A stretch of DNA of 64,000 nucleotides, taken from Halostagnicola kamekurae. Lineage in GTDB: Archaea > Halobacteriota > Halobacteria > Halobacteriales > Natrialbaceae. Below, one piece after another: positions 13,128 to 62,801 of the stretch. Made by a program: the position numbers and the translations under genes. Within the stretch, counting starts at the first letter, position 1. Each line of letters opens with the position of its first letter. Location: positions 1 to 64,000 of the forward strand of contig NZ_FOZS01000006.1 in NCBI RefSeq assembly GCF_900116205.1. Reading direction: 5' to 3'. The notes beneath the pieces were generated by a model. The model did no database searches. It saw nothing but the letters and a program-made list of their open reading frames with translations, and was not told where the DNA came from.

Positions 13128-15149
13128 ATGGTGAGGGTCAAATCGTTTCGCATTCAGAATTATAGATCAATCATCGATTCAGGTACAGTATCACTGGAGG
13201 AGAACGTAACAAAAATTGTCGGACCAAATGAGGCAGGGAAGACAAATATTCTTGATGCATTATCTTCGTTCAACGTCCAGAGAGACTATAAGGAGCGCGA
13301 GTTAAGCAACTATGTCCCAGACTCTAACAAAGATTCCCCAACCCCGGTTGTAACAGTCACCTTTGAAGATCTAAGTGTGGAGGAGGCACCGTTTGCTCCT
13401 GCTTTTTCGAAGATTTCTCACCCAGACTCTATGTCTACTACAGCTACTCTAATAAAATATTTTAACGGAGATTATGCAATTAAGTATGATGGCTCTGAAA
13501 TTTCAATAGAACAGCAGATGAGGAGCCAATTCCGGGACATGAATGATAAAATTGGTGACTTATCTGAAGAATTGAGGGAATTGGGGCATCTTTCTCAACA
13601 TGATTTATATTCGAATATAAGTAAACAGATCCAGGATATACTTCAATCAAATAACCGATTTAGTAGAGCTTCCTTAGATGATTTTGAGTCTATTGATGAA
13701 TTATCTGAGGAGGCCTTTAGATCTATGGAGCAACATAGCCAGTTTATCGAAGATGATCAGAAAATGGTTGAAATTGAAGAATCTACTATACGACTAAAAT
13801 CCCTAACTAGTGTTCAAAAGAACCTACTGAGATTAAGGAACAATCCTTTAAAAGAATTATCCCTATTCACCTATTTAACGGATTTTGGATTGTTTCCAGA
13901 TTCAGTCGGGTTGGATTCAATTCAAGATGAGAGCTATACTGGCCCATACGTAGATTTACTAGAGTATGCTAAACTCACTCCAGATGAATTAGAACATATA
14001 GATCCAGGAGAAACTCATCGACGTCGACAAGAAGTTGAGGAAAGGTTGAATAATGATCTGAACAGACATTGGGTCCAAGGGGAAATAGAGGTTCAAATTG
14101 AATTAACAAGTTCTCAAGTAGGGTTACAGATATACGACGAGACAGGCGAGCACACTGTTCCTAGTGATCGGAGCACTGGATTTCGTTGGTTTTTGTCTTT
14201 CTATCTCAGTATATTAGCAGGCGAGAATTCAAAAGTTGATAAGAATATCCTTCTTTTGGATGACCCAGGAGTACATCTTCACCCGTATGGCCTCAAACGT
14301 CTTCGGGAATCATTAGATAGTTTTGGTGAAGAAACACAACTAGTCTACAGCACTCACTCTCCATTTCTCCTCGAATCTAATGAAATAGATAACATCCGAC
14401 TCCTCAAGCGAGAGAGTTCCAACGGGACACAAGTATATTCATTGTTAGAGGCGCCTGATCCTGTGGACAGGGATGCACTAGCACCGGTTCGAACGAGTTT
14501 AGGTGCAACAATGGCTGAATCTTTATTTACTGGTTCAGCAACGGTACTCGTGGAAGGAGTCAGTGATAAGTACTATTTGGAGGGCTTTTCAGACTTCTTT
14601 GCCGGGGACAGAAAACTGTCGCTGAAGCCCGGAACAAATATCATTGATGTCAGTGGCTCAAAGGCAGTCTACTTCGCTAAGCTTGTTGATGCTGAAGGAT
14701 TCGAGTTTGTTATCCTTCTTGATGATGACAATGGTGGTAGTAACCAATATGAGAACCTAATTGACTCTGGTATCAGTTCAGACAAAGTCGTCTTTGTTAG
14801 CGATGCTATTGATCGAGAATTGGAAGCTGACGCAATCACCATTGAGGATCTGCTTCCACCTGAGTTGTTATATCGGGAAGTGTCAGATCATACTCCGGCA
14901 ACTTTTGATCAGTTAGGAGAACCCCCTGAGGCGGATAAGTTCGACATAGTCTCTACGATTGAAGGACGTCTAAATGAACTTAAAGGACGAGGGGAGATTG
15001 ATAAAAGTCATCTCTCAAAGGATACTATTGCCAATAGTTTCGTTACTAAGCTTGTTGAAGGGGACTATACTGAGGAAAATCTTGACGAGCGCTCAGTAGA
15101 AAGATTCGAGAAATTGATTAAGGAGATAAATGAGTCATTGTCAAAATAG
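13128..15149 (+). CDS. OLD-family ATP-dependent nuclease (ABC ATPase plus TOPRIM)
   Basis: A 673-residue protein beginning VKSFRIQNYRSI. Walker A is GPNEAGKTN (about residues 32-40); Walker B and the following His are in LLLDDPGVHLHP (about 376-387); STHSPFLLES holds the switch His. A C-terminal TOPRIM domain follows with VLVEGVSDKYYLEGF (acidic residue at about 477) and ILLDDDNGG (about 530). This is the OLD/GajA-type plan: the ATPase controls a metal-dependent DNA nickase, used in phage exclusion. No UvrD-like GajB partner is adjacent, so this looks like a single-gene (class 1) OLD protein. The DNA is AT-rich relative to the neighbours, as expected for a transferred defence gene. Confidence 0.9.
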   Translation: MVRVKSFRIQNYRSIIDSGTVSLEENVTKIVGPNEAGKTNILDALSSFNVQRDYKERELSNYVPDSNKDSPTPVVTVTFEDLSVEEAPFAPAFSKISHPDSMSTTATLIKYFNGDYAIKYDGSEISIEQQMRSQFRDMNDKIGDLSEELRELGHLSQHDLYSNISKQIQDILQSNNRFSRASLDDFESIDELSEEAFRSMEQHSQFIEDDQKMVEIEESTIRLKSLTSVQKNLLRLRNNPLKELSLFTYLTDFGLFPDSVGLDSIQDESYTGPYVDLLEYAKLTPDELEHIDPGETHRRRQEVEERLNNDLNRHWVQGEIEVQIELTSSQVGLQIYDETGEHTVPSDRSTGFRWFLSFYLSILAGENSKVDKNILLLDDPGVHLHPYGLKRLRESLDSFGEETQLVYSTHSPFLLESNEIDNIRLLKRESSNGTQVYSLLEAPDPVDRDALAPVRTSLGATMAESLFTGSATVLVEGVSDKYYLEGFSDFFAGDRKLSLKPGTNIIDVSGSKAVYFAKLVDAEGFEFVILLDDDNGGSNQYENLIDSGISSDKVVFVSDAIDRELEADAITIEDLLPPELLYREVSDHTPATFDQLGEPPEADKFDIVSTIEGRLNELKGRGEIDKSHLSKDTIANSFVTKLVEGDYTEENLDERSVERFEKLIKEINESLSK

Positions 15150-23451: not shown

Positions 23452-26400
23452 ATGGCTATTTTCATGGCCCGGGGCTACAAGGACCCCTTCCATCGGCACG
23501 TGTCTCAAAGTTTAGGGAATTGCTTTTCAGAGCAGCGGCGGGAGGAGCTGCAATCGGCAGTCAGGGCCCATTCCGAGGACGGACAGATGGATTTCGATAG
23601 CGACCGTCTATTAAACCTCCTCGAGAAAGAAACGGTCACTGCTTGGGGTGCCAAGGAGAAAGATTTCGATCTGTTCCGGCAAATCAGCCCTGGCGATTCC
23701 TTTTTGATGCGAACTGGCAAGCCAGCAATCGTACAGTACGTCCAGCAAATTGATTATACGCTTGGTGGCGAAGCTCCACGCGATCTCCGAGCCGAACTTT
23801 CCGAGACTATCTGGGGCAGCGACGATTACGAGTATCTCTGGTTTTCTGAAACGCCGATTACTGAAATCGAACTGCGTCAAGAGGAATTTGAATCGATTAT
23901 CAGAGAAGCGTATGAGGATTTTAATTTCGATGACTGGTTCCCTTCCCAGAGTACGAACGCAACCAGAATCGATGAGGAAGTCCTCGCGGACCTTGGCGGG
24001 GAGCGTACATTTTTAGACCGACTTGAGGAGTATAACGGTGAAGATCTTCAACCGGGCGCATCACATCATTTCCTATTTTATGAGGCGCATGATGCGGCGG
24101 GGCTAACAGATGACCACTTCTTCGAGTTTAAGCAAACTGCTGTTGAGCACTGGTCGGAGGTTCAAGATGCTGAGAACGATGGCCGAGCAGCCGTTCTTGA
24201 TGACGAGGGCTGTATCCTCGGAGTCGGGCGTGTTGGGAATATTGAAGGCGAACTACGAGACGGAAGTCGATACAAGAAGGTCAATCTAATCGATTGGCAA
24301 CCGGTTTCTGCTGACTCTGTCACGGAACTCCTGAGGGATCTCGGAATATCGTCACCACAACCGCTTATAGATCAATCTCGACCTCATCTGGATCCAATCA
24401 CTTTACTGCCTGAAGACAAGTTTGAAGCAATTCTCAAACGCGTCTCTGAAGAACAGTCCACGGATCTCCATACGTACTGGGAACTGACAAAGACGAAACG
24501 AGAAATAGCAGATGAGTTCCTAGAAGAGCGTACGAGAGAGGAGTTAGAGCACTTGCTTGATCCATCTCACTTCTTCTCCCAACAACGGCGAATGTATCAG
24601 AGCGATTTGGATCAGATATTCGATTCAAACAGCGCATCAGAAATCGCTGAGACTATCGAAACGGCAATAGAGAACGACGCGCCAGGCCAAGTCACAGAGG
24701 TGAACGGATTTGGTTGGGCAAAAGCCACTGAACTTCTGGCAGCAGTTGAGCCAGACACATATTCAATTCTGAACGAGAGATCAGAGACAGCGATGTCTGT
24801 GTTGGGCTATGAAGCGCCAGATTCCAGCACTGCTAGCCCAGAAGAGTACCAGAATTTTGTCGAAGATGTCGAAGAAGCAGTCTCAGGATTCGGACTTAGG
24901 GAGACCGCCGAGGATATCTGCACCCACGAGCTGCCCGACTGGGCTACCGACCTCGAGGTCGCTGATTTCGTGTTCAACGCTCACTACAAAGGAGAATACG
25001 ATTTAGAAGAGGAAACAACTGAATGCCCTGTAACGACGGAGGAGGCGCCATACTATTGGGTGAATCAAAAGAATAACCCCGCTGAGATTGAGGAGGAGTA
25101 TCTACGTGCTCCCGCAGATGAGAACCCGAACCACGACATCGGCAAGTTAGGGACAGGGGATATCGTTTTCAACCACGTCAGCGGTGACATTATCGGCTAT
25201 TCTGAGGTTACCGAATCCCCGCAGATAGAGACGGTCGATGGAGAAGAGTACTGCCATGCAGAGGTTTCGCTCACGCGATTCAATGATCCACTCCGCCTTG
25301 CCGATGTGTTCAGTTACCTGATTCACGACGACATCCAGACTGAAACATACTATCCGCTTTACGATGAAGGAATCAATCAGGGATATCTCTTCAATCTCTC
25401 ACAAGCCGCTGGTGAGTATCTCCTCGAGGAAGCTGGAGTGAAATCGTTCGAGACGCATCCCGCACTGGACCACCATCAGAAGAATTCGAACGTCTCAGTC
25501 TGGCGGTTTAGTGTAACTGCTAGTGACTGGCTGACAATCCTACGGCGCGGAGCCATGCACCTGTGGGACGCCAACAGGGACGACGGTCGGTTCAGAGAGC
25601 AATGGCGTGAGACTTCGCCAGGAGATCTCGTCCTCTTCCACCTCAAAGAGGAGGAAGACAAAGTAGGCGACGGAGTCACCGTCTCTGACTATGGGATATT
25701 CGGGGTAGGGATCGTTGACAAGAAAGATACCAAATCCGACCGCTGGTGGTACGACGAGGATGAGGCTCTCAAGTACCCATATCTGATCCGCTTCGATGAG
25801 ATGTATGTCACCAGTGATGTCGAAGAATTGGATCTTGAAACGCCTGTATTCGCTCTCGAAGATGATGAGATCATCAGTGAGTTTGAGCCGCTAATAGCAG
25901 GACTACTGCAATGGAGCGATGTTTCTGAACTTGCTGAAGAGTCGATGGGGCGTGATATCCCGCTCCAGTCCGGCTCCTATGCTAATCTGACTGCAACTCT
26001 GAATGGGGTTGAGTCGTTCACTTCATCAGTGATCCAGCGGCTTGCGCCGCATCTATCGGAAGTATCTCCGCCAGAATCGTTTCCAGGGATGCTCCCTCTA
26101 TCCGAGGACGAACCAGACGATGCCAAGAAATTAGCAAACCAACTGGAGCGAAACGGGCAGCTTGTCCTGTATGGGCCACCAGGAACGGGGAAAACATACA
26201 CTGCAACCCGATTCGCTCGCTGGTGGATTCACCAGCAGAACAATCGCCCATCCGACCAGCGCTTCCAGACGGTTACATTCCATCCCTCATACTCGTATGA
26301 AGACTTCATGGAGGGGTTAACCGCAAATGCGACTGACGAAAACTTGGTCGAATACGAGTATGAAGATGGAACGTTCAAAGAGGTCGTCAAACAAGCACGG

Positions 26401-27171
26401 AATGGCTATCTCGAGGCCGCTGATCGCGATTCCGCACCCAGATATGTGCTCCTGATCGACGAGATCAATCGCGGAAACCTCTCACAGATCTTTGGCGAGG
26501 CAATTACGCAACTCGAGATGGACAAGCGCCTTGATCAAGATGAATCAGTTACCGTTCGATGGGCCCATACTGGCGACCCTATTGACCTCCCACCGAATCT
26601 GTATATCATCGGGACGATGAATACCGCGGATCAATCGATCGCGCAAGTGGATGCAGCGCTCCGCCGCCGGTTTGCTTTCGTCGGCTGTCCCCCGGACTAC
26701 AGCGTTTTCGTTGACGAATACGAGTTCGATAGCGAAACGGCGATCGGATCACTGGCGAACGACGTCATTACGTCTGGTCGAGAAGGAGTTGACGCAGCAG
26801 AAGACCACTATCCGCTGCTGGCTCTCTCGATTCGGGCCCTGAAAGCCATCAATGAGAACATCCTCTCGTCCAGGGATCTGAACAAGGGGAAACAAATCGG
26901 CCACTCTTACCTCCTCGATATCAAGTCAACGGACGATCTCGTGGCGGCCTGGCAGTTCGATATTCTCCCCTTACTCGAAGAATATTACTTCGGTGATTTC
27001 GACCGGCTCCGACGCGAGGTCTTCGAAATCAACGTGGAAACATCCAGTGAAACTGTAATTGACTCCAACCTCTTCGAGTTGAACGAACACAAGATCGCGG
27101 ATCTGGAAGTAGATGATCTCGAGACAACACTTGGGCAGTTCGTTGACAGTCACGAATTCAACGAACAATGA
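23452..27171 (+). CDS. mcrB: McrB-type GTPase with several N-terminal EVE-like domains
   Basis: A 1239-residue protein. The last 340 residues are the McrB AAA+ motor: Walker A YGPPGTGKTYTA (about 906-917), HPSYSYEDFMEGL, Walker B LLIDEINRGNLSQIFGE (about 1000), and the GTP-specificity segment IIGTMNTADQS (about 1052) followed by LRRRFAF. The first 850 residues hold at least three EVE/PUA-like units: VTAWGAKEKDFDLFRQI (from about 60), YYWVNQKNNPAEIEEEY (from about 532) and VSVWRFSVTASDWLTILRR (from about 682); a further helical unit lies between. E. coli McrB is about 460 residues, so this is unusually long. It forms a ring that moves on DNA and activates McrC. The gene overlaps mcrC by four bases. 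Confidence 0.92.
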   Translation: MAIFMARGYKDPFHRHVSQSLGNCFSEQRREELQSAVRAHSEDGQMDFDSDRLLNLLEKETVTAWGAKEKDFDLFRQISPGDSFLMRTGKPAIVQYVQQIDYTLGGEAPRDLRAELSETIWGSDDYEYLWFSETPITEIELRQEEFESIIREAYEDFNFDDWFPSQSTNATRIDEEVLADLGGERTFLDRLEEYNGEDLQPGASHHFLFYEAHDAAGLTDDHFFEFKQTAVEHWSEVQDAENDGRAAVLDDEGCILGVGRVGNIEGELRDGSRYKKVNLIDWQPVSADSVTELLRDLGISSPQPLIDQSRPHLDPITLLPEDKFEAILKRVSEEQSTDLHTYWELTKTKREIADEFLEERTREELEHLLDPSHFFSQQRRMYQSDLDQIFDSNSASEIAETIETAIENDAPGQVTEVNGFGWAKATELLAAVEPDTYSILNERSETAMSVLGYEAPDSSTASPEEYQNFVEDVEEAVSGFGLRETAEDICTHELPDWATDLEVADFVFNAHYKGEYDLEEETTECPVTTEEAPYYWVNQKNNPAEIEEEYLRAPADENPNHDIGKLGTGDIVFNHVSGDIIGYSEVTESPQIETVDGEEYCHAEVSLTRFNDPLRLADVFSYLIHDDIQTETYYPLYDEGINQGYLFNLSQAAGEYLLEEAGVKSFETHPALDHHQKNSNVSVWRFSVTASDWLTILRRGAMHLWDANRDDGRFREQWRETSPGDLVLFHLKEEEDKVGDGVTVSDYGIFGVGIVDKKDTKSDRWWYDEDEALKYPYLIRFDEMYVTSDVEELDLETPVFALEDDEIISEFEPLIAGLLQWSDVSELAEESMGRDIPLQSGSYANLTATLNGVESFTSSVIQRLAPHLSEVSPPESFPGMLPLSEDEPDDAKKLANQLERNGQLVLYGPPGTGKTYTATRFARWWIHQQNNRPSDQRFQTVTFHPSYSYEDFMEGLTANATDENLVEYEYEDGTFKEVVKQARNGYLEAADRDSAPRYVLLIDEINRGNLSQIFGEAITQLEMDKRLDQDESVTVRWAHTGDPIDLPPNLYIIGTMNTADQSIAQVDAALRRRFAFVGCPPDYSVFVDEYEFDSETAIGSLANDVITSGREGVDAAEDHYPLLALSIRALKAINENILSSRDLNKGKQIGHSYLLDIKSTDDLVAAWQFDILPLLEEYYFGDFDRLRREVFEINVETSSETVIDSNLFELNEHKIADLEVDDLETTLGQFVDSHEFNEQ

Positions 27172-55838: not shown

Positions 55839-57035
55839 GTGCCACAGACTAGACTTCTACACATCAGTGATACCCATCTCGGGAAACGCCAATACGGCTC
55901 TGATGTCCGACGTGATGACTTTGCACATGTATTCGGACGAGCAATCAAACTCGCTGTTGATCGCGATGTCGAGGCTGTCATCCATACAGGTGATCTATTC
56001 GATGACCCAGTACCATCGCTTCCGACAGTCATGGAATGTGCTGAGCTGCTTGAGCCGCTCGAGAAGCATGACATCCCATTCTACGGTATCGTGGGAAACC
56101 ACGAACGGAAAAACGACGACCAGTGGCTTGACCTCCTCCGACGTACGAACGCTGTAACTCGACTAAATAGAGAGGCAATGGTCGTTGGTGATGTAGCAAT
56201 CTATGGAATCGATGCGGTCCGTCCGAGCGTCTGGGACACAGCTGATTTCGAACTCGAAGCACCGCCTGAAGGGGCCGAATATTCGATTCTCTGTATGCAT
56301 GAACTGCTCGACCCCCCTGCAGAAGGGGTCGTCGCTAATTATCCCGCCAACGATGTCCTTGAACGTGTCAACGTTAACCTCGACGGCCTCGCACTCGGCG
56401 ACCTCCACCAGCCGAAGAGCGCACGCGTTGATGGGACAGATATCTGGTACGCGAGTGCGACCGAGCGCGGTGCGAAAGATCAGGAAGAGACGGGACTCGT
56501 TCAGTTACTCGAGATCGAGGACGGGAGTCTCACTCGCCGCCAGCTTGAACTCGAGACGCGCCCATGGTCGGTATTCCATATCGCGTTCGGCGAGGATGAC
56601 GGTGCGGAATACGTTCGTGATGTGTTTGACCGGCGTGATCTTGATGAGGCCGTTGCGAAAATCGAACTGACTGGGGATCGTGGCGCCGTCACTGCAAATG
56701 AAGTGCTTCAAATGGCCCGTGACGCCGGAGCTGCTGTCGTGAGTGTTGACGACAACCGAGGACGCGTCGATATCAATGTCGACTCGATCGAGGCGATGTC
56801 GCTTCAGGGGCTCGACGGTGCTATCGAAGAGCGGCTTGCAGACGAGGACTTCTCAGAGGTGGCTCTTGACGTCGACAGTCGTGTTCGTGAGGAAGAAGGT
56901 ATCAGCGACAACGTCAATGGGGCCGCGACGGATCTCGAACCTGCTATTCGAGATCGGCAGAAGATAGCCTTTGACGAGCGTGAAGCGCTGGATGAGAAGA
57001 TCGACGCGACCGTGACGATGGAGGGGAACGAATGA
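55839..57035 (+). CDS. mre11: Mre11 nuclease
   Basis: A 398-residue protein starting at GTG 55839 (VPQTRLLHISDTHLG). All phosphoesterase motifs are present: DTHLGKRQYG (about residues 11-20), HTGDLFDD (about 47-54), GNHERKND (about 84-91), MHELLD (about 149) and GDLHQP (about 187-192). Mre11 is the 3'-5' exonuclease and endonuclease of the Mre11-Rad50 complex, which processes DNA ends for recombination. Stop and start overlap those of rad50 by four bases. In this window the pair sits beside CRISPR genes rather than in a housekeeping context. Nothing suggests damage to this gene. Confidence 0.95.
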   Translation: MPQTRLLHISDTHLGKRQYGSDVRRDDFAHVFGRAIKLAVDRDVEAVIHTGDLFDDPVPSLPTVMECAELLEPLEKHDIPFYGIVGNHERKNDDQWLDLLRRTNAVTRLNREAMVVGDVAIYGIDAVRPSVWDTADFELEAPPEGAEYSILCMHELLDPPAEGVVANYPANDVLERVNVNLDGLALGDLHQPKSARVDGTDIWYASATERGAKDQEETGLVQLLEIEDGSLTRRQLELETRPWSVFHIAFGEDDGAEYVRDVFDRRDLDEAVAKIELTGDRGAVTANEVLQMARDAGAAVVSVDDNRGRVDINVDSIEAMSLQGLDGAIEERLADEDFSEVALDVDSRVREEEGISDNVNGAATDLEPAIRDRQKIAFDEREALDEKIDATVTMEGNE

Positions 57036-60000
57036 AAATCACACAACTGCGGTTACAGAATATCCGGAGTTACAGCGACGAGACAATCGAACTCCCGGAC
57101 GGGACGGTCCTCGTTCGTGGTGATAATGGAGCGGGCAAGACAACGTTGCTGATGTCGATCTTCGGTGGCCTCTTCCTTTCGAAAATCCGTAATGTTGGGT
57201 CGAATAACTTCAACCTTGACGATATCGTCCGTCGGGGGGCAGAGGGAGGAGAAATCGAGCTCACTTTCGAAGTCGAGAACGTCCAGTACACGGTCACGTG
57301 GACAATCGATACAACTGGGCAAAACAGCGCGGTGATTACATCCCCTGCATTCGAGGAGCCAAAATCTGGGATTCGGCACGTTCGATCGGAGGTCATCGAC
57401 GTTGTCGGTATGGACGAGGACAGTTTCTCCCGCTCGGTGTACGTCCAACAGGGTGAGGTCGACCGACTGTTCGACGATGATGCTCGTGCGGAACTTATCG
57501 ACGATTTACTCGGACTTGATCAAATTGACCGCTACCGGAGCCGAATGAAGGGAGCACGCCGCATAGCGAACCGTCTCGTCAGCGAAAACGAACAAGCAGT
57601 GGCGAACCACCGTGAGACTATCGAGGAGCAGTTCGACTATGATATCGAGGGGTACGAGTCCGAACTCGCAGAGAAACAGGCAGCGATTGTGAAGACGGAA
57701 TCCGAGTTAGAAGAGATCAGCAGCTTCCTTGAAGAGCTACAGGACGCAAAACGTGACCTCGAGTCCGTGATAGAGGATTACGACGAATTGGAAACGAAAC
57801 TTAGTGATACGAAAGCCACGCGTGAGGAATTACTCGAGGACCGAGCCACCAAACAACAGGATATCGAGGAGGCAGAAGCAGCGATCGAGGAGGCCGAGGC
57901 CGAAATCGAGAATCTCCAAGACCGAATCGAGGAGAAAACGAACGCCCTCGTGGAGCTCGAGACGCCTGCGACGACCGACCCGATCGAGATCAATCTCGGT
58001 ACAGAATCTACTGCCGAGAAGACCCTCGAAGCCGCACGAGATGCCGTCGAGACGGCGAAAGTCGAGCGACAGAACCGAGAAAACGGCCTGGAACAAGCGG
58101 AAGAGGAACTTACTCGTCTTCGTGACGAACGTGAACAACTCCATGAAGAACGCGATGGGATCGAGGAATTACTGTCGACGATTGCGGAGAAAATCGACGA
58201 TGCAGAGACTGAGGTCGAAGTCATCGAGGACGAACTCTCGGAAGCCGTAGACGACCGGAACGCAGCCACAGAGGAGTTCCTACCCGACGAGCACTGTCCG
58301 GACTCGGTGACCGACGATACCCTAGATCTCGTCGAATCACACAAGGACGAACTCACCGAACAGAAGAGCAATCGCTCCGAGGAACTCGCTGCCAAGGAAG
58401 CGTCGCTCGAGGCCAAAGAGGAAAACATTGCGGACGCCCGTGAAGATGTCGAAGCGGCGGAATCGGGGATCAACGAGTTCGAAGAGCGAATCGGTGAGGT
58501 GGAATCGGAGCTCTCGTCTGCTCGTGACGAACTCGAAAACGACCGGGAGCAGTTCCAGAACGATCTGAACGCACTCGCCGAGGAACTCACGACGTTCGGC
58601 ATCGATGTCACTGATGACACGCTCAGCACGACTATCGACGATCAGATCCCCGAGGCCAAAGCCGACATTCAGAAATCGATCGAAGAGGCAAACAACAGAG
58701 TCACGGAACTCGCTACGCGGAAACAGAGCCTCGAGGAGGACCGAGAGGAATTGGAATCGTTGGACGGTCTCGCAACGTGTCCGAAGTGTGATCAGACGGT
58801 CGACGTTGATCACCTCGAGAACGAACTCGACGAGATTACGACGGAGATTACAGAGCTGGAAACGCAACTCGAAACGGCGAAACAAGAGCGTGACGATCAT
58901 CTCGCTGCTCGTGACGAACTCGATGCCCTCCGAGCGGAGGCGATCGACCTTCGAGAGTTCCGTACCGAGACCGTGAAAGTGACAGCGAACCGGGCCGAGG
59001 AACTGGAAGACGAACTCGAGACGCTCCAAGACGAACTGGACGAGGAACAGGAGGTACTGATCGACGCAAAGAGCGACTTCGAAGAAACTGAGGCTGCCGT
59101 CGACGACCTCGAAACCGAAATCGACGAACTCGACGGAGCGATCGACGCGCTGGAGACGTGTATCGAGGAGGGTGACGCCGTTGTCGACGCTTTCGACACC
59201 GTCGACCAACTGCGCGACCGACACGAGGATCGTGTCGATGACCTCTCAGACCTTCAAGAGGAGTGCACCGACACGAAATCCGACCTCGAGCGCCTGGAGA
59301 CGGAGCTCAACGAGCTGTCAGAGCAGATCGAAACACAGCAGGAGGGGGTCACGGATGCCGAAGCCAATCTCGATACTGCTGAAGACGCCATCGAGACGGC
59401 GAACGAGCAGCGCAAATTCGTCGCCGAGGCAGTAGACGCGTACGACGCGATCGATGACCTCGAAAGCGATATTGACAGTCACCAGCAGGATATCAGCCAC
59501 GCTCGGGACTCCATCGAGACGCTAAACAAGCAGATTGACGCCGTCGAAGACGGAATCGAGGATCTCGAGGAAGAACTCGGTGGGACGGATATCGAAGAAA
59601 CGAAAGCAAATCTCGAGGATGTCGAAGAACGGATCGATCAGCGAGAGGTGACGGCCGAGGACCTCGAAGAAACACTCCAGTCGCTCAGGTCGGACCGGGA
59701 CGTCCTCGAAAACGAACTCGAACGGCTGCAGCGGTTCCACGATCGGCTCGAACTCGCGGAGGAAAAACGCGAGTGGGCACAGGACCGGGCTGACGAGTTC
59801 GAGAAGATGATGCACGTGTATCAGGGCGCGAAATCGGACCTCCGTGAGCAGTACCTCGCGTACGTCAACGAGTACACGAACGACATCTTCAGCGATATCT
59901 ACAAGAACAGTAGCTACCAGCAGGTGCGTATCCTCGACGAGGGCCCCGACGGGACGCCGTATGCCATCCAACTTCTCCGAGACGATGGGACGCTCGAGCA

Positions 60001-60514
60001 CCCAAGCAATGCGAGTGGCGGTGAGCGGGCAATCGTCAATCTCGCACTTCGTGCCGGGATTTACAAACTCATCGCGGAGATGCGCGATGGCGACAGTGGC
60101 CGACTTCCGCCGTTCATCCTCGACGAACCGACGACGTTTCTCGATGAAGGCCTACGCTGCTACAACCTCGATCCTTTCCTAGGCGTGCTCCACGCCGATC
60201 GACACGGCCGGCCATCGCTCGCGCTCGACCTCCAAGAGGAGTTCCGACCGCTGTTCTGTGACGCGTTCGTCACGCGCCTGATCAACCGCGGAACGATCAC
60301 GCACGATCAGTTCGGAAATGATAATCGACTCACCGACGACGGCTTCCAAGCGTACTTGGACAAATTCGACGGCTACATGGGCGAAGAATTGACACACCCG
60401 CACTTCGAGTACCGCGTGAGCCGTCGAAAAGCGATTCGACAGCAAGTGATTCTCTTGCGGAAAGCGATCACAGGTGAGCTCGATGACTACCACGCACTGG
60501 AGGTGTCCCGATGA
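57032..60514 (+). CDS. Chimeric Rad50-Cas1: Rad50 fused in frame to the C-terminal third of Cas1
   Basis: A 1160-residue protein. Residues 1-1040 are Rad50: MKITQLRLQNIRSY, Walker A GDNGAGKTTLL (about 31-41), long coiled coils with the zinc hook CPKCDQTV (about 583), signature NASGGERAIVNLALRAG (about 992) and Walker B FILDEPTTFLDEG (about 1028-1040). There the Rad50 sequence stops; the last 50 or so residues with the switch His are missing. From residue 1041 (nucleotide 60152) it continues as LRCYNLDPFLGVLHADRHGR, PSLALDLQEEFR and FVTRLINRGTITHDQF, the C-terminal 120 residues of Cas1 (normally about 330). The metal-binding His and Asp/Glu of Cas1 are present, but the first catalytic Glu is lost. 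Both parts are probably impaired. The stop overlaps cas2. Confidence 0.92.
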   Translation: MKITQLRLQNIRSYSDETIELPDGTVLVRGDNGAGKTTLLMSIFGGLFLSKIRNVGSNNFNLDDIVRRGAEGGEIELTFEVENVQYTVTWTIDTTGQNSAVITSPAFEEPKSGIRHVRSEVIDVVGMDEDSFSRSVYVQQGEVDRLFDDDARAELIDDLLGLDQIDRYRSRMKGARRIANRLVSENEQAVANHRETIEEQFDYDIEGYESELAEKQAAIVKTESELEEISSFLEELQDAKRDLESVIEDYDELETKLSDTKATREELLEDRATKQQDIEEAEAAIEEAEAEIENLQDRIEEKTNALVELETPATTDPIEINLGTESTAEKTLEAARDAVETAKVERQNRENGLEQAEEELTRLRDEREQLHEERDGIEELLSTIAEKIDDAETEVEVIEDELSEAVDDRNAATEEFLPDEHCPDSVTDDTLDLVESHKDELTEQKSNRSEELAAKEASLEAKEENIADAREDVEAAESGINEFEERIGEVESELSSARDELENDREQFQNDLNALAEELTTFGIDVTDDTLSTTIDDQIPEAKADIQKSIEEANNRVTELATRKQSLEEDREELESLDGLATCPKCDQTVDVDHLENELDEITTEITELETQLETAKQERDDHLAARDELDALRAEAIDLREFRTETVKVTANRAEELEDELETLQDELDEEQEVLIDAKSDFEETEAAVDDLETEIDELDGAIDALETCIEEGDAVVDAFDTVDQLRDRHEDRVDDLSDLQEECTDTKSDLERLETELNELSEQIETQQEGVTDAEANLDTAEDAIETANEQRKFVAEAVDAYDAIDDLESDIDSHQQDISHARDSIETLNKQIDAVEDGIEDLEEELGGTDIEETKANLEDVEERIDQREVTAEDLEETLQSLRSDRDVLENELERLQRFHDRLELAEEKREWAQDRADEFEKMMHVYQGAKSDLREQYLAYVNEYTNDIFSDIYKNSSYQQVRILDEGPDGTPYAIQLLRDDGTLEHPSNASGGERAIVNLALRAGIYKLIAEMRDGDSGRLPPFILDEPTTFLDEGLRCYNLDPFLGVLHADRHGRPSLALDLQEEFRPLFCDAFVTRLINRGTITHDQFGNDNRLTDDGFQAYLDKFDGYMGEELTHPHFEYRVSRRKAIRQQVILLRKAITGELDDYHALEVSR

Positions 60515-60783
60515 GACTCGCAGTAACGTACGACGTCAGCGACGACACGAATCGTCGGCGTGTCTACCGGACGCTAGAACGATACGGGGCGTGGCGCCAG
60601 TACAGCGTCTTCGAACTTGACGTCTCGAAGAGCGAGCGGGTCGAACTCGAAGACGAACTCGAGGAACACATCGAGCCAGCTGACGGAGATCGAATCCGGC
60701 TGTATCGGCTCTGCGAATCCTGCCAAGAGGCGACGACAGATCTCGGAACCGAACCACCGGACGAACAATCCAACGTTATCTGA
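60511..60783 (+). CDS. cas2: Cas2
   Basis: A 90-residue protein with LAVTYDVSDDTNRRRVYRTL and ERYGAWRQYSVFELDVS, the ferredoxin-like fold and the YDV metal site of Cas2, then RIRLYRLCESCQEATTDLG. Cas2 forms the centre of the Cas1-Cas2 spacer integrase. Start ATGAG overlaps the end of the Cas1 part of the chimera, as in normal cas1-cas2 pairs. With Cas1 reduced to its C-terminus, spacer uptake from this locus is unlikely unless another Cas1 is supplied. Confidence 0.95.
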   Translation: MRLAVTYDVSDDTNRRRVYRTLERYGAWRQYSVFELDVSKSERVELEDELEEHIEPADGDRIRLYRLCESCQEATTDLGTEPPDEQSNVI

Positions 60784-60899
60784 CGTCGGTCTTCGTCGAC
60801 CTTTTTCAAAGCCGTGTACAGCAGAGGTCCACGAAAGCATCCCGTGTCGTCGTGGGTAGAGCAAGGTTTATAGACCCGCTCGAGCAAAATTCACCCCCT
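60784..60899 (+). promoter_or_regulatory. CRISPR leader
   Basis: The 116 bases between cas2 and the first repeat include GGTTTATAGACC (about 60864-60875), a likely TATA element roughly 25-35 bases before the first repeat. Leader at this end is supported by the intact repeats here and the decayed repeats at the far end, and by the ATTGAAAC end of the repeats pointing away. Confidence 0.6.
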
Positions 60900-61661
60900 G
60901 TCGAAGTGCGGTAGAAACCCAGAACGGGATTGAAACCGGCCTCGTTCCCCTCGAGGATCTGTTCGCGGACCTGTCGAAGTGCGGTGGAAACCCAGAACGG
61001 GATTGAAACATCCTCAGCGACGGAACGCAGTTCCAACCGACACGTCGAAGTGCGGTAGAAACCCAGAACGGGATTGAAACAGGTTCGAAAGGGCGATGGG
61101 ACGGTGCTGTGGTCGAGTCGAAGTGCGGTAGAAACCCAGAACGGGATTGAAACTTGCAGTCCTGATTACTGGCCTGTTCGTCGTGACCTGTCGAAGTGCG
61201 GTAGAAACCCAGAACGGGATTGAAACACTCCTCGAGCGGTATTGAGCGGCCCGACGAATGTCGAAGTGCGGTAGAAACCCAGAACGGGATTGAAACGATA
61301 CAGGAGGGTTCGAGACGGCGATCACGGACGAGGTCGAAGTGCGGTAGAAACCCAGAACGGGATTGAAACGCCGATCCGCAGACCTTCGTTCTTGAGAGCG
61401 GTGAGTCGAAGTGCGGTAGAAACCCAGAACGGGATTGAAACAAGAGCAGGTCTACACGCGGAGTACAACCAACGGCTGTCGAAGTGCGGTAGAAACCCAG
61501 AACGGGATTGAAACATCCGCGCCGCGTGCAGGAGGGGAGAGTGATGGACTCGTCGCAGGGCGGTAGAAACCCAGAACGAGATTGAAACGCCCCGATCGGA
61601 GCGGCCCTCAGTTCGAATCCGGGGCGTCGCAGAAGGGAGAAAACCCACTACGGGATGAAAA
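60900..61661 (+). CRISPR. CRISPR array, 11 repeats (last two decayed), 10 spacers
   Basis: The repeat is 37 bases: GTCGAAGTGCGGTAGAAACC followed by CAGAACGGGATTGAAAC. Copies start at 60900, 60973 (one A-to-G change), 61044, 61117, 61190, 61260, 61333, 61405 and 61478; these nine are otherwise identical. A tenth at 61552 has three or four changes (GTCGCAGGG start, ACGAG) and an eleventh at 61626 is very worn. Spacers are 33-37 bases. The array would give crRNAs if processing enzymes exist elsewhere, because no cas3, cas5-8 or cas6 gene lies in the window. Spacer sources cannot be read here; the last one (61589-61625) contains GTTCGAATCC, a tRNA T-loop-like sequence. Confidence 0.97.
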
Positions 61662-61808
61662 TAGATCAGAAAAGGACATTATCGATGATTGTTTGGCTAT
61701 CTAAGGGCCGTGGGGCAGAAGCCTTCTTATAGCGTGATGTTGGGGCTACCGACATCGCTTCCTCGATGGTGATTAGCGAGTGTAACGGAGGGTGTCATAG
61801 AAGAGTTC

Positions 61809-62801
61809 TCACACCGTGATCACGGTACTTGCCGGATTGTCTCCGCGTTCGTAGTTGGTGATTGCGACGACGAGGCGAAGGCACAGCGCAAGAAACACTT
61901 GCTCTCGTACGTGGACGCAGCCTCGGGCGTGCGTTCGCCCGAGGCCGCAGTCCTTGACTGATTCGTTGGTTCGTTCGACGCCTGTCCGGCGGTTGTACGT
62001 CTCGTCTAGCGTCGATTGCTTCAGTTGAACGTCTTCACTGTGTTCCTCGATGCGGTCTTCGACTCTGTACTTGATGTCTTTCGGATCGTCGGTGTTTCGC
62101 GCGTTGTACGGAGCGACTGGCACGACCCCTGCTGGCCGCAGGGGTCGTGCCAGTCGAGTGTGTCGTAGGCGCTGTCACCGACCATCCAGATCGGCTTGGC
62201 GACGGCGAGTGCGTCACTTGTGACGCGCATCGCCGTCTCCTCTGGCGCTTGTTTGCTCTCGGTGAACTCGGCTGCAATCGGGATCTTTGATCCGGTCGAG
62301 ACGATCGTGCAGCCGTAGCCGTGGTAGTACTCCTCAGCGGTAGGATCGTAGCATTTCGACGCATCTTGATCGGCGGGCATCGTCCTCACGTCGGTTGAAT
62401 CGATGCAGTAGGTCAAGTTGAGCAGGCCGCGGCAGGCGGCCTGCTCGACGAGTCGGTCGAAGACATCGTCAACGACGTGTTCAAGGTCAGTGAGAAAGCG
62501 ATTGACCGCGTCTCTCGGCGGCGGTCGATCGAAGCCGCAGCCTCAGCCAGACAACCGTATTCTGAAGCTCCCGCTCAACAGGACGGATCCCATAGATGTC
62601 ACGATAATAGCAGTGGAGGAAGCCGCGCATCAACTCTGGTGGTTTATGCTCTCGTGTTCGCCCCGTCTGCTCCGGGGCGAACACATCGAACTCGTCGAGA
62701 AACTCGAAGGAAAGATGCTCAAACAACGTTAACGTCTCGGTCTCCGCGACATTGAAGAACGACTCTACCGAAGGCTCATCCTGCAGGGTCGCTGAGTCCA
62801 T
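61809..62801 (-). pseudogene. DDE transposase of the 15-bp-end IS, two frameshifts
   Basis: From ATG 62801: FLDEFDVFAPEQ, PPELMRGFLHCYYRDIYGIR and NTVVWL. After a one-base gain near 62545 it goes on as CGFDRPPPRDAVNRFLTDLE, NLTYCIDSTDVRTMPADQD and GYGCTIVSTGSKIPIAAEFT (first catalytic Asp in IDSTD). After a second shift near 62115-62156 it continues as GVVPVAPYNARNTDDPKDIK, RVEDRIEEHSEDV and YNRRTGVERTNESVKDCG (catalytic Glu). Overall an IS4/IS5-like DDE enzyme; the exact family is not fixed. Inactive as it stands, so the element would need a helper. Confidence 0.75.
62114..62156. repeat. Perfect 18-bp inverted repeat with 7-base loop at a frameshift site
   Basis: CGACTGGCACGACCCCTG at 62114-62131 is followed by the loop CTGGCCG and the exact reverse complement CAGGGGTCGTGCCAGTCG at 62139-62156. 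It lies inside the transposase gene exactly where the reading frame breaks. It could have formed by template switching during replication; a natural terminator or regulatory hairpin is less likely in mid-gene. Confidence 0.75.

Follow-up and report, generated by a model that had tools for sequence, protein, structure and literature searches.

The haloarchaeon Halostagnicola kamekurae carries a Rad50–Cas1 chimera in a single uninterrupted open reading frame (57032-60514, forward strand, ATG start, 1160 amino acids) of the 64,000-nucleotide stretch analysed here (that is, the window, whose coordinates are used unless a locus or contig is named). We propose, with a probability of roughly 0.88, that this gene is a chance product of an illegitimate join between an accessory mre11-rad50-nurA-herA operon and the cas1-cas2-CRISPR end of a type I-D locus, and that it is most likely non-functional. 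In other words, losing a type I-D CRISPR–Cas locus most probably produced the fusion as a dead by-product.

Structure and surroundings of the chimera

The first 1040 residues correspond to residues 1-1040 of an accessory Rad50 whose intact parent has 1102 (codons at 57032-60151, forward strand, delimited by profile match and comparison with intact relatives), and are covered by the Rad50 models Rad50_Halo (NCBIfam) and PRK02224. They are followed by residues 212-331 of a type I-D Cas1 of 331 residues (60152-60514, forward strand, stop codon included, delimited by comparison with Natrialba asiatica), which begins with LRCYN at residue 1041 (that is, nucleotide 60152) and is recognized over residues 1041-1158 by Pfam Cas_Cas1 (E = 1.1e-19), NCBIfam Cas1d (E = 5.5e-46) and PADLOC Cas1d (E = 1.4e-53). 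Reading frame and profile matches thus agree with an earlier sequence-only reading, which had described a frame passing unbroken from a nearly complete Rad50 into the last 120 residues of Cas1, and alignment to complete relatives bears out its statement that the switch-histidine end of Rad50 and the first catalytic glutamate of Cas1 are both lost.

The Rad50 part retains Walker A (residue 30), the zinc hook CPKC between the coiled coils (residue 583), the signature ASGGER (residue 994) and the Walker B/D-loop (residues 1028-1040). Compared with intact relatives, the last 62 of 1102 residues are gone, including the switch histidine of VSHDE, and a complete C-terminal ATPase lobe is absent. From the Cas1 part, the first 211 of 331 residues are missing, including the N-terminal beta domain and the glutamate of IEGEAAERYF; of the Glu-His-Asp active site, the histidine and aspartate are retained. 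Upstream lies an accessory mre11 (55839-57035, forward strand, 398 amino acids; NCBIfam Mre11_Halo, E = 5.5e-81) that is intact, equal in length to those of three relatives and, like them, free of stops. The Mre11–Rad50 side might conceivably still work on its own, with the Cas1 part as a tolerated tail, given that mre11 and the N-terminal lobe of rad50 are intact and conserved; yet the 62 lost residues align with the final part of solved Rad50 heads, switch histidine included, and nurA has been lost too, such that we give this possibility hardly any credence.

Directly downstream, as the sequence-only reading had noted, come an intact cas2 (60511-60783, forward strand, 90 amino acids; Pfam CRISPR_Cas2, E = 2.9e-21), which overlaps the end of the fusion frame by ATGA in the same arrangement as in intact loci, and a CRISPR array (60900-61588, forward strand) of ten 37-nucleotide repeats and nine spacers, the distal repeat being diverged. 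The intervening leader (60784-60899, forward strand) resembles, side by side, the leaders of intact I-D loci (L040 and L045), and a search of phage records with leader and array gave no match. A degenerate terminal repeat (61626-61662, forward strand) was read directly from the sequence. The interval between the last good and the degenerate repeat (61589-61625) ends in a T-arm-like sequence, GTTCGAATCC, and ARAGORN calls no tRNA there. Immediately behind the array lies a transposase split into several frames (61784-62801, reverse strand), an intact relative of which (332 amino acids, 77% DNA identity) adjoins the array of Natrinema hispanicum (L045:14287-15285).

The contig is plasmid-like and rich in defence genes, carrying an orc1/cdc6 gene and an OLD/Gabija-like ATPase. 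The latter (13128-15149) has a TOPRIM domain, and a large dynein-related-AAA protein (23452-27171) matches restriction-enzyme models; with these two genes the region is a defence island.

The junction and its intact parents

We mapped the junction by DNA comparison with intact rad50 genes (loci L073, L074 and L084) and intact cas1 genes (L040 and L045). The match to rad50 extends to 60152 (in two relatives, to 60150), and that to cas1 starts at 60149-60153, which places the junction at 60149-60152 (forward strand), with a microhomology of 1 bp for certain and possibly as much as 4 bp (GGCC). Across it, rad50 reads GAAGGC/CAC, the window GAAGGC/CTACGC and the cas1 genes of relatives GCG/CTACGC or GGT/CTGCGC. 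The join sequence is single copy: it occurs once in the window, where shuffling predicts 0 occurrences, and the genome holds no further copy. Such a short overlap at a sharp join is the signature of an illegitimate join rather than of recombination between long repeats.

Both parents exist intact in other haloarchaea. The accessory Rad50 group (1102 amino acids) occurs in several Natrinema, Halorubrum, Natribaculum and Natronoglomus genomes, with some copies borne on plasmids, and its intact operon has the order mre11-rad50-nurA-herA; the rad50 part of the chimera shares ~83% DNA identity with that of Natrinema hispanicum (L073) up to 60152. This is not the housekeeping protein, as a separate housekeeping-type rad50 lies in a 930-codon open frame on contig C2. 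Accessory operons of this kind (for example, L073:5817-13481 and L127:8036-15698) also occur on plasmids and differ from the housekeeping mre11-rad50; they could serve as a module for defence or plasmid maintenance.

For the other parent, an annotated intact I-D locus with a Cas1 of the same clade, on a Halococcus plasmid, has the order csa3-cas6-cas10d-cas7d (csc2)-cas5d (csc1)-cas3'-cas4-cas1-cas2-array, and the Cas1 part of the chimera is identical to that of Natrialba asiatica at 120 of 120 amino acids, with 16 synonymous differences. In some relatives, the cas6 and cas1 genes known from ordinary I-D loci flank a different, divergent effector set. These I-D-like loci (L045:1687-10366 and L041:1687-10366) encode a divergent large subunit of 817-847 amino acids together with weak relatives of Csc2 and Csc1; the large subunit of L045 is matched by no Pfam or NCBIfam model. 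They may reflect modular effector exchange, possibly in a new subtype.

Mechanistically, the join would have attached the cas1-cas2-CRISPR end of a type I-D locus to a plasmid-borne accessory operon, either by deletion (through microhomology-mediated or other end joining) or by non-homologous recombination between replicons. Break repair in haloarchaea makes use of microhomology-mediated end joining, which always goes along with deletions in its products, and Ku is absent from Haloferax volcanii (PMC7776575; PMC7521656); a suitable route therefore exists in haloarchaea. The sequence-only reading had favoured a deletion that joined an mre11-rad50 operon to a cas1-cas2 operon. Although this fits everything observed, the two operons were neighbours in none of the genomes seen, and a simple deletion is therefore no likelier than non-homologous recombination of plasmids. 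In either case, the event would have left Rad50 without the last core strand and switch histidine of its ATPase head and Cas1 without its N-terminal domain and catalytic glutamate, while cas2 and the array would have become orphans, now read from the mre11 side in a setting devoid of I-D processing and interference genes.

Dispersed remnants of the type I-D system

In relatives, nurA and herA come after rad50, and cas1 stands at the end of a complete I-D cas operon, before cas2. Of the missing parts, we searched for NurA, the front of Cas1d, Cas6 and Cas10d throughout the organism's own 16-contig assembly (completeness 99.94%). No ortholog of the accessory NurA was found in the assembly (just a 30% relative on contig C2), nor was the N-terminal front of Cas1d found anywhere in it. 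An I-D Cas6 for array processing had no match in the genome, although all five positive-control genomes matched, and Cas10d was likewise not found in the genome with a model that detects the protein of L040 at 1e-139. Csc1 and Csc2 were not found in positions 1-59000 of the window and two other genome regions, and a search of the assembly for a relative of the divergent 817-aa effector, run without a positive control, found none. Of the type I-D effector set (Cas10d/Csc3, Csc1, Csc2 and Cas3'), what these searches recovered was a 66-codon cas3' remnant with a stop codon. The earlier suggestion that other cas genes were perhaps removed along with the front of cas1 accords with these absences and with the full I-D operon of the relatives.

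The cas3' remnant lies on contig C3, where the 66-codon tail runs directly into a degenerate CRISPR repeat (L124:9686-9920; C3 ~356185-356420), forming another deletion scar left by the I-D system. It adjoins a gene whose product, judged by eye, resembles a PEP-dependent phosphotransferase enzyme. On contig C9 (L144:6450-6780), there is an orphan array whose repeat is related to those of arrays beside csa3 in intact I-D loci. Given the absent I-D pieces, the cas3' remnant on C3 and the orphan array on C9, we infer that the I-D system was lost in pieces and that the fusion is one of the scars. The genome does have an intact Cas1 of another clade, located in a cas cluster on contig C13 that, to judge from its gene order, would belong to subtype I-B.

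These searches also bear on whether two complete loci were misjoined at 60152 during assembly, with the sequence between them lost. The fusion is confirmed as real in the assembly, and the join is known from the assembly alone, a draft of 16 contigs, in which the contig concerned (C6, 65 kb) showed no detectable end overlap when tested for a circular plasmid. However, had two loci been misjoined, their other halves should normally turn up elsewhere, whereas NurA, the front of Cas1d, Cas6 and Cas10d are all absent from an assembly of such completeness, and no repeat at the single-copy junction is long enough to have misled an assembler. An assembly error is, on this evidence, unlikely.

Recurrence, selection and age

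For 84,980 species, one genome each was scanned with peptide patterns of the fusion, among them the junction-spanning DEGLRCYN, and no second fusion was found: of 142 confirmed loci, the best 80 match the Rad50 side or the Cas1 side alone, with one partial exception (L091), a bacterial Cas1 on a 9 kb contig with a weak 37% match reaching back to query residue 22. Among 323 genomes of the order and 60 relatives searched at the protein level, both parts occurred together in the window alone. Searches of viral contigs and plasmids yielded no second fusion, and among the publication titles listed by a literature search there was none describing a Rad50–Cas1 fusion. Looking for the same fusion in other species, a check put forward with the sequence-only reading, thus produced no second copy.

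The sequence shows no sign of decay around the junction. Private changes in codons 930-1040 of rad50 number 10 synonymous and 0 amino-acid, and those in the cas1 part 7 and 0, respectively, these two counts resting on slightly different definitions of private; for comparison, 3 synonymous and 4 amino-acid changes as well as 1 stop were counted in the cas3' scar on C3. With ~3.2 nonsynonymous sites per synonymous site and 0 versus 17 changes, any neutral period is estimated to span at most ~6% of the private branch (exp(-54f) < 0.05). Given 0 amino-acid and ~17 synonymous private changes, the fusion is either young or still under constraint. A young event would fit these counts and, relative to continued constraint, would require no extra assumption.

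Continued constraint would be expected if the chimera had been selected, that is, if it were an expressed Mre11–Rad50 DNA-end complex whose Cas1 C-terminal domain docks or recruits Cas2, CRISPR DNA or the I-D leader for prespacer capture or repair. The lack of nonsynonymous private changes near the join is compatible with this, as is the argument, raised with the sequence-only reading, that the frame and the cas2 overlap are preserved. Frame and overlap are indeed preserved, but an in-frame join has a 1-in-3 chance of arising, and the overlap came along with the original terminus of cas1. A little plausibility may also come, by analogy rather than as direct support, from the presence of Rad50 (HVO_0854) among the proteins that co-purify with Cas1 in Haloferax volcanii (PMC9051519). 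Against a selected role stand the lack of recurrence in the genomes and collections scanned, the incomplete ATPase head and Cas1 active site, and the absence from the genome of any Cas6 or Cas10d to use the array. Moreover, mutating the catalytic glutamate (E158) of H. volcanii Cas1 impaired its repair role (PMC9051519); this glutamate is absent here, and repair activity is therefore not expected of the chimera. With no recurrence, both active sites broken and partners missing, the earlier side suggestion of a selected function finds no support, and we regard such a function as very improbable; if true, it would mean that break processing and spacer acquisition are physically linked.

Implications and comparison with known systems

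Read as a chance join, the locus provides a clean example of CRISPR–Cas dismantling in haloarchaea, in which several contigs bear scars that illegitimate joins have left of a single system type, one of these scars happening to be in frame. It also serves as a warning that a long uninterrupted frame in which two famous domains meet can turn out to be a defective by-product, one that automatic annotation could label either Rad50 or Cas1.

Among known systems, the closest counterpart of the upstream part is the haloarchaeal accessory operon, such as that on a plasmid of Natrinema sp. SYSU A 869 (NZ_CP082247.1), which the window resembles in its intact mre11 and in rad50 codons 1-1040, which are collinear at ~84% DNA identity. 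Compared with this operon and that of Haloferax alexandrinus pBNX82-4, rad50 is here 62 codons short and neither nurA nor herA follows. From haloarchaeal type I-D systems (for example, those of Halococcus dombrowskii plasmid NZ_CP095009.1 and Natrialba asiatica), the window has kept the Cas1d C-terminus, cas2, leader, repeat and array, whereas codons 1-211 of cas1 are gone and none of csa3, cas6, cas10d, csc2, csc1, cas3' and cas4 stands in front.

Functional Cas1 fusions, such as Cas4-Cas1 and Cas6-RT-Cas1, recur. The chimera shares with them (solved structures 7mi4 and 7kft) the placement of Cas1 sequence as the C-terminal portion of a larger protein, but those fusions carry a complete Cas1, whereas the chimera holds just the last 36% of it, in one genome.
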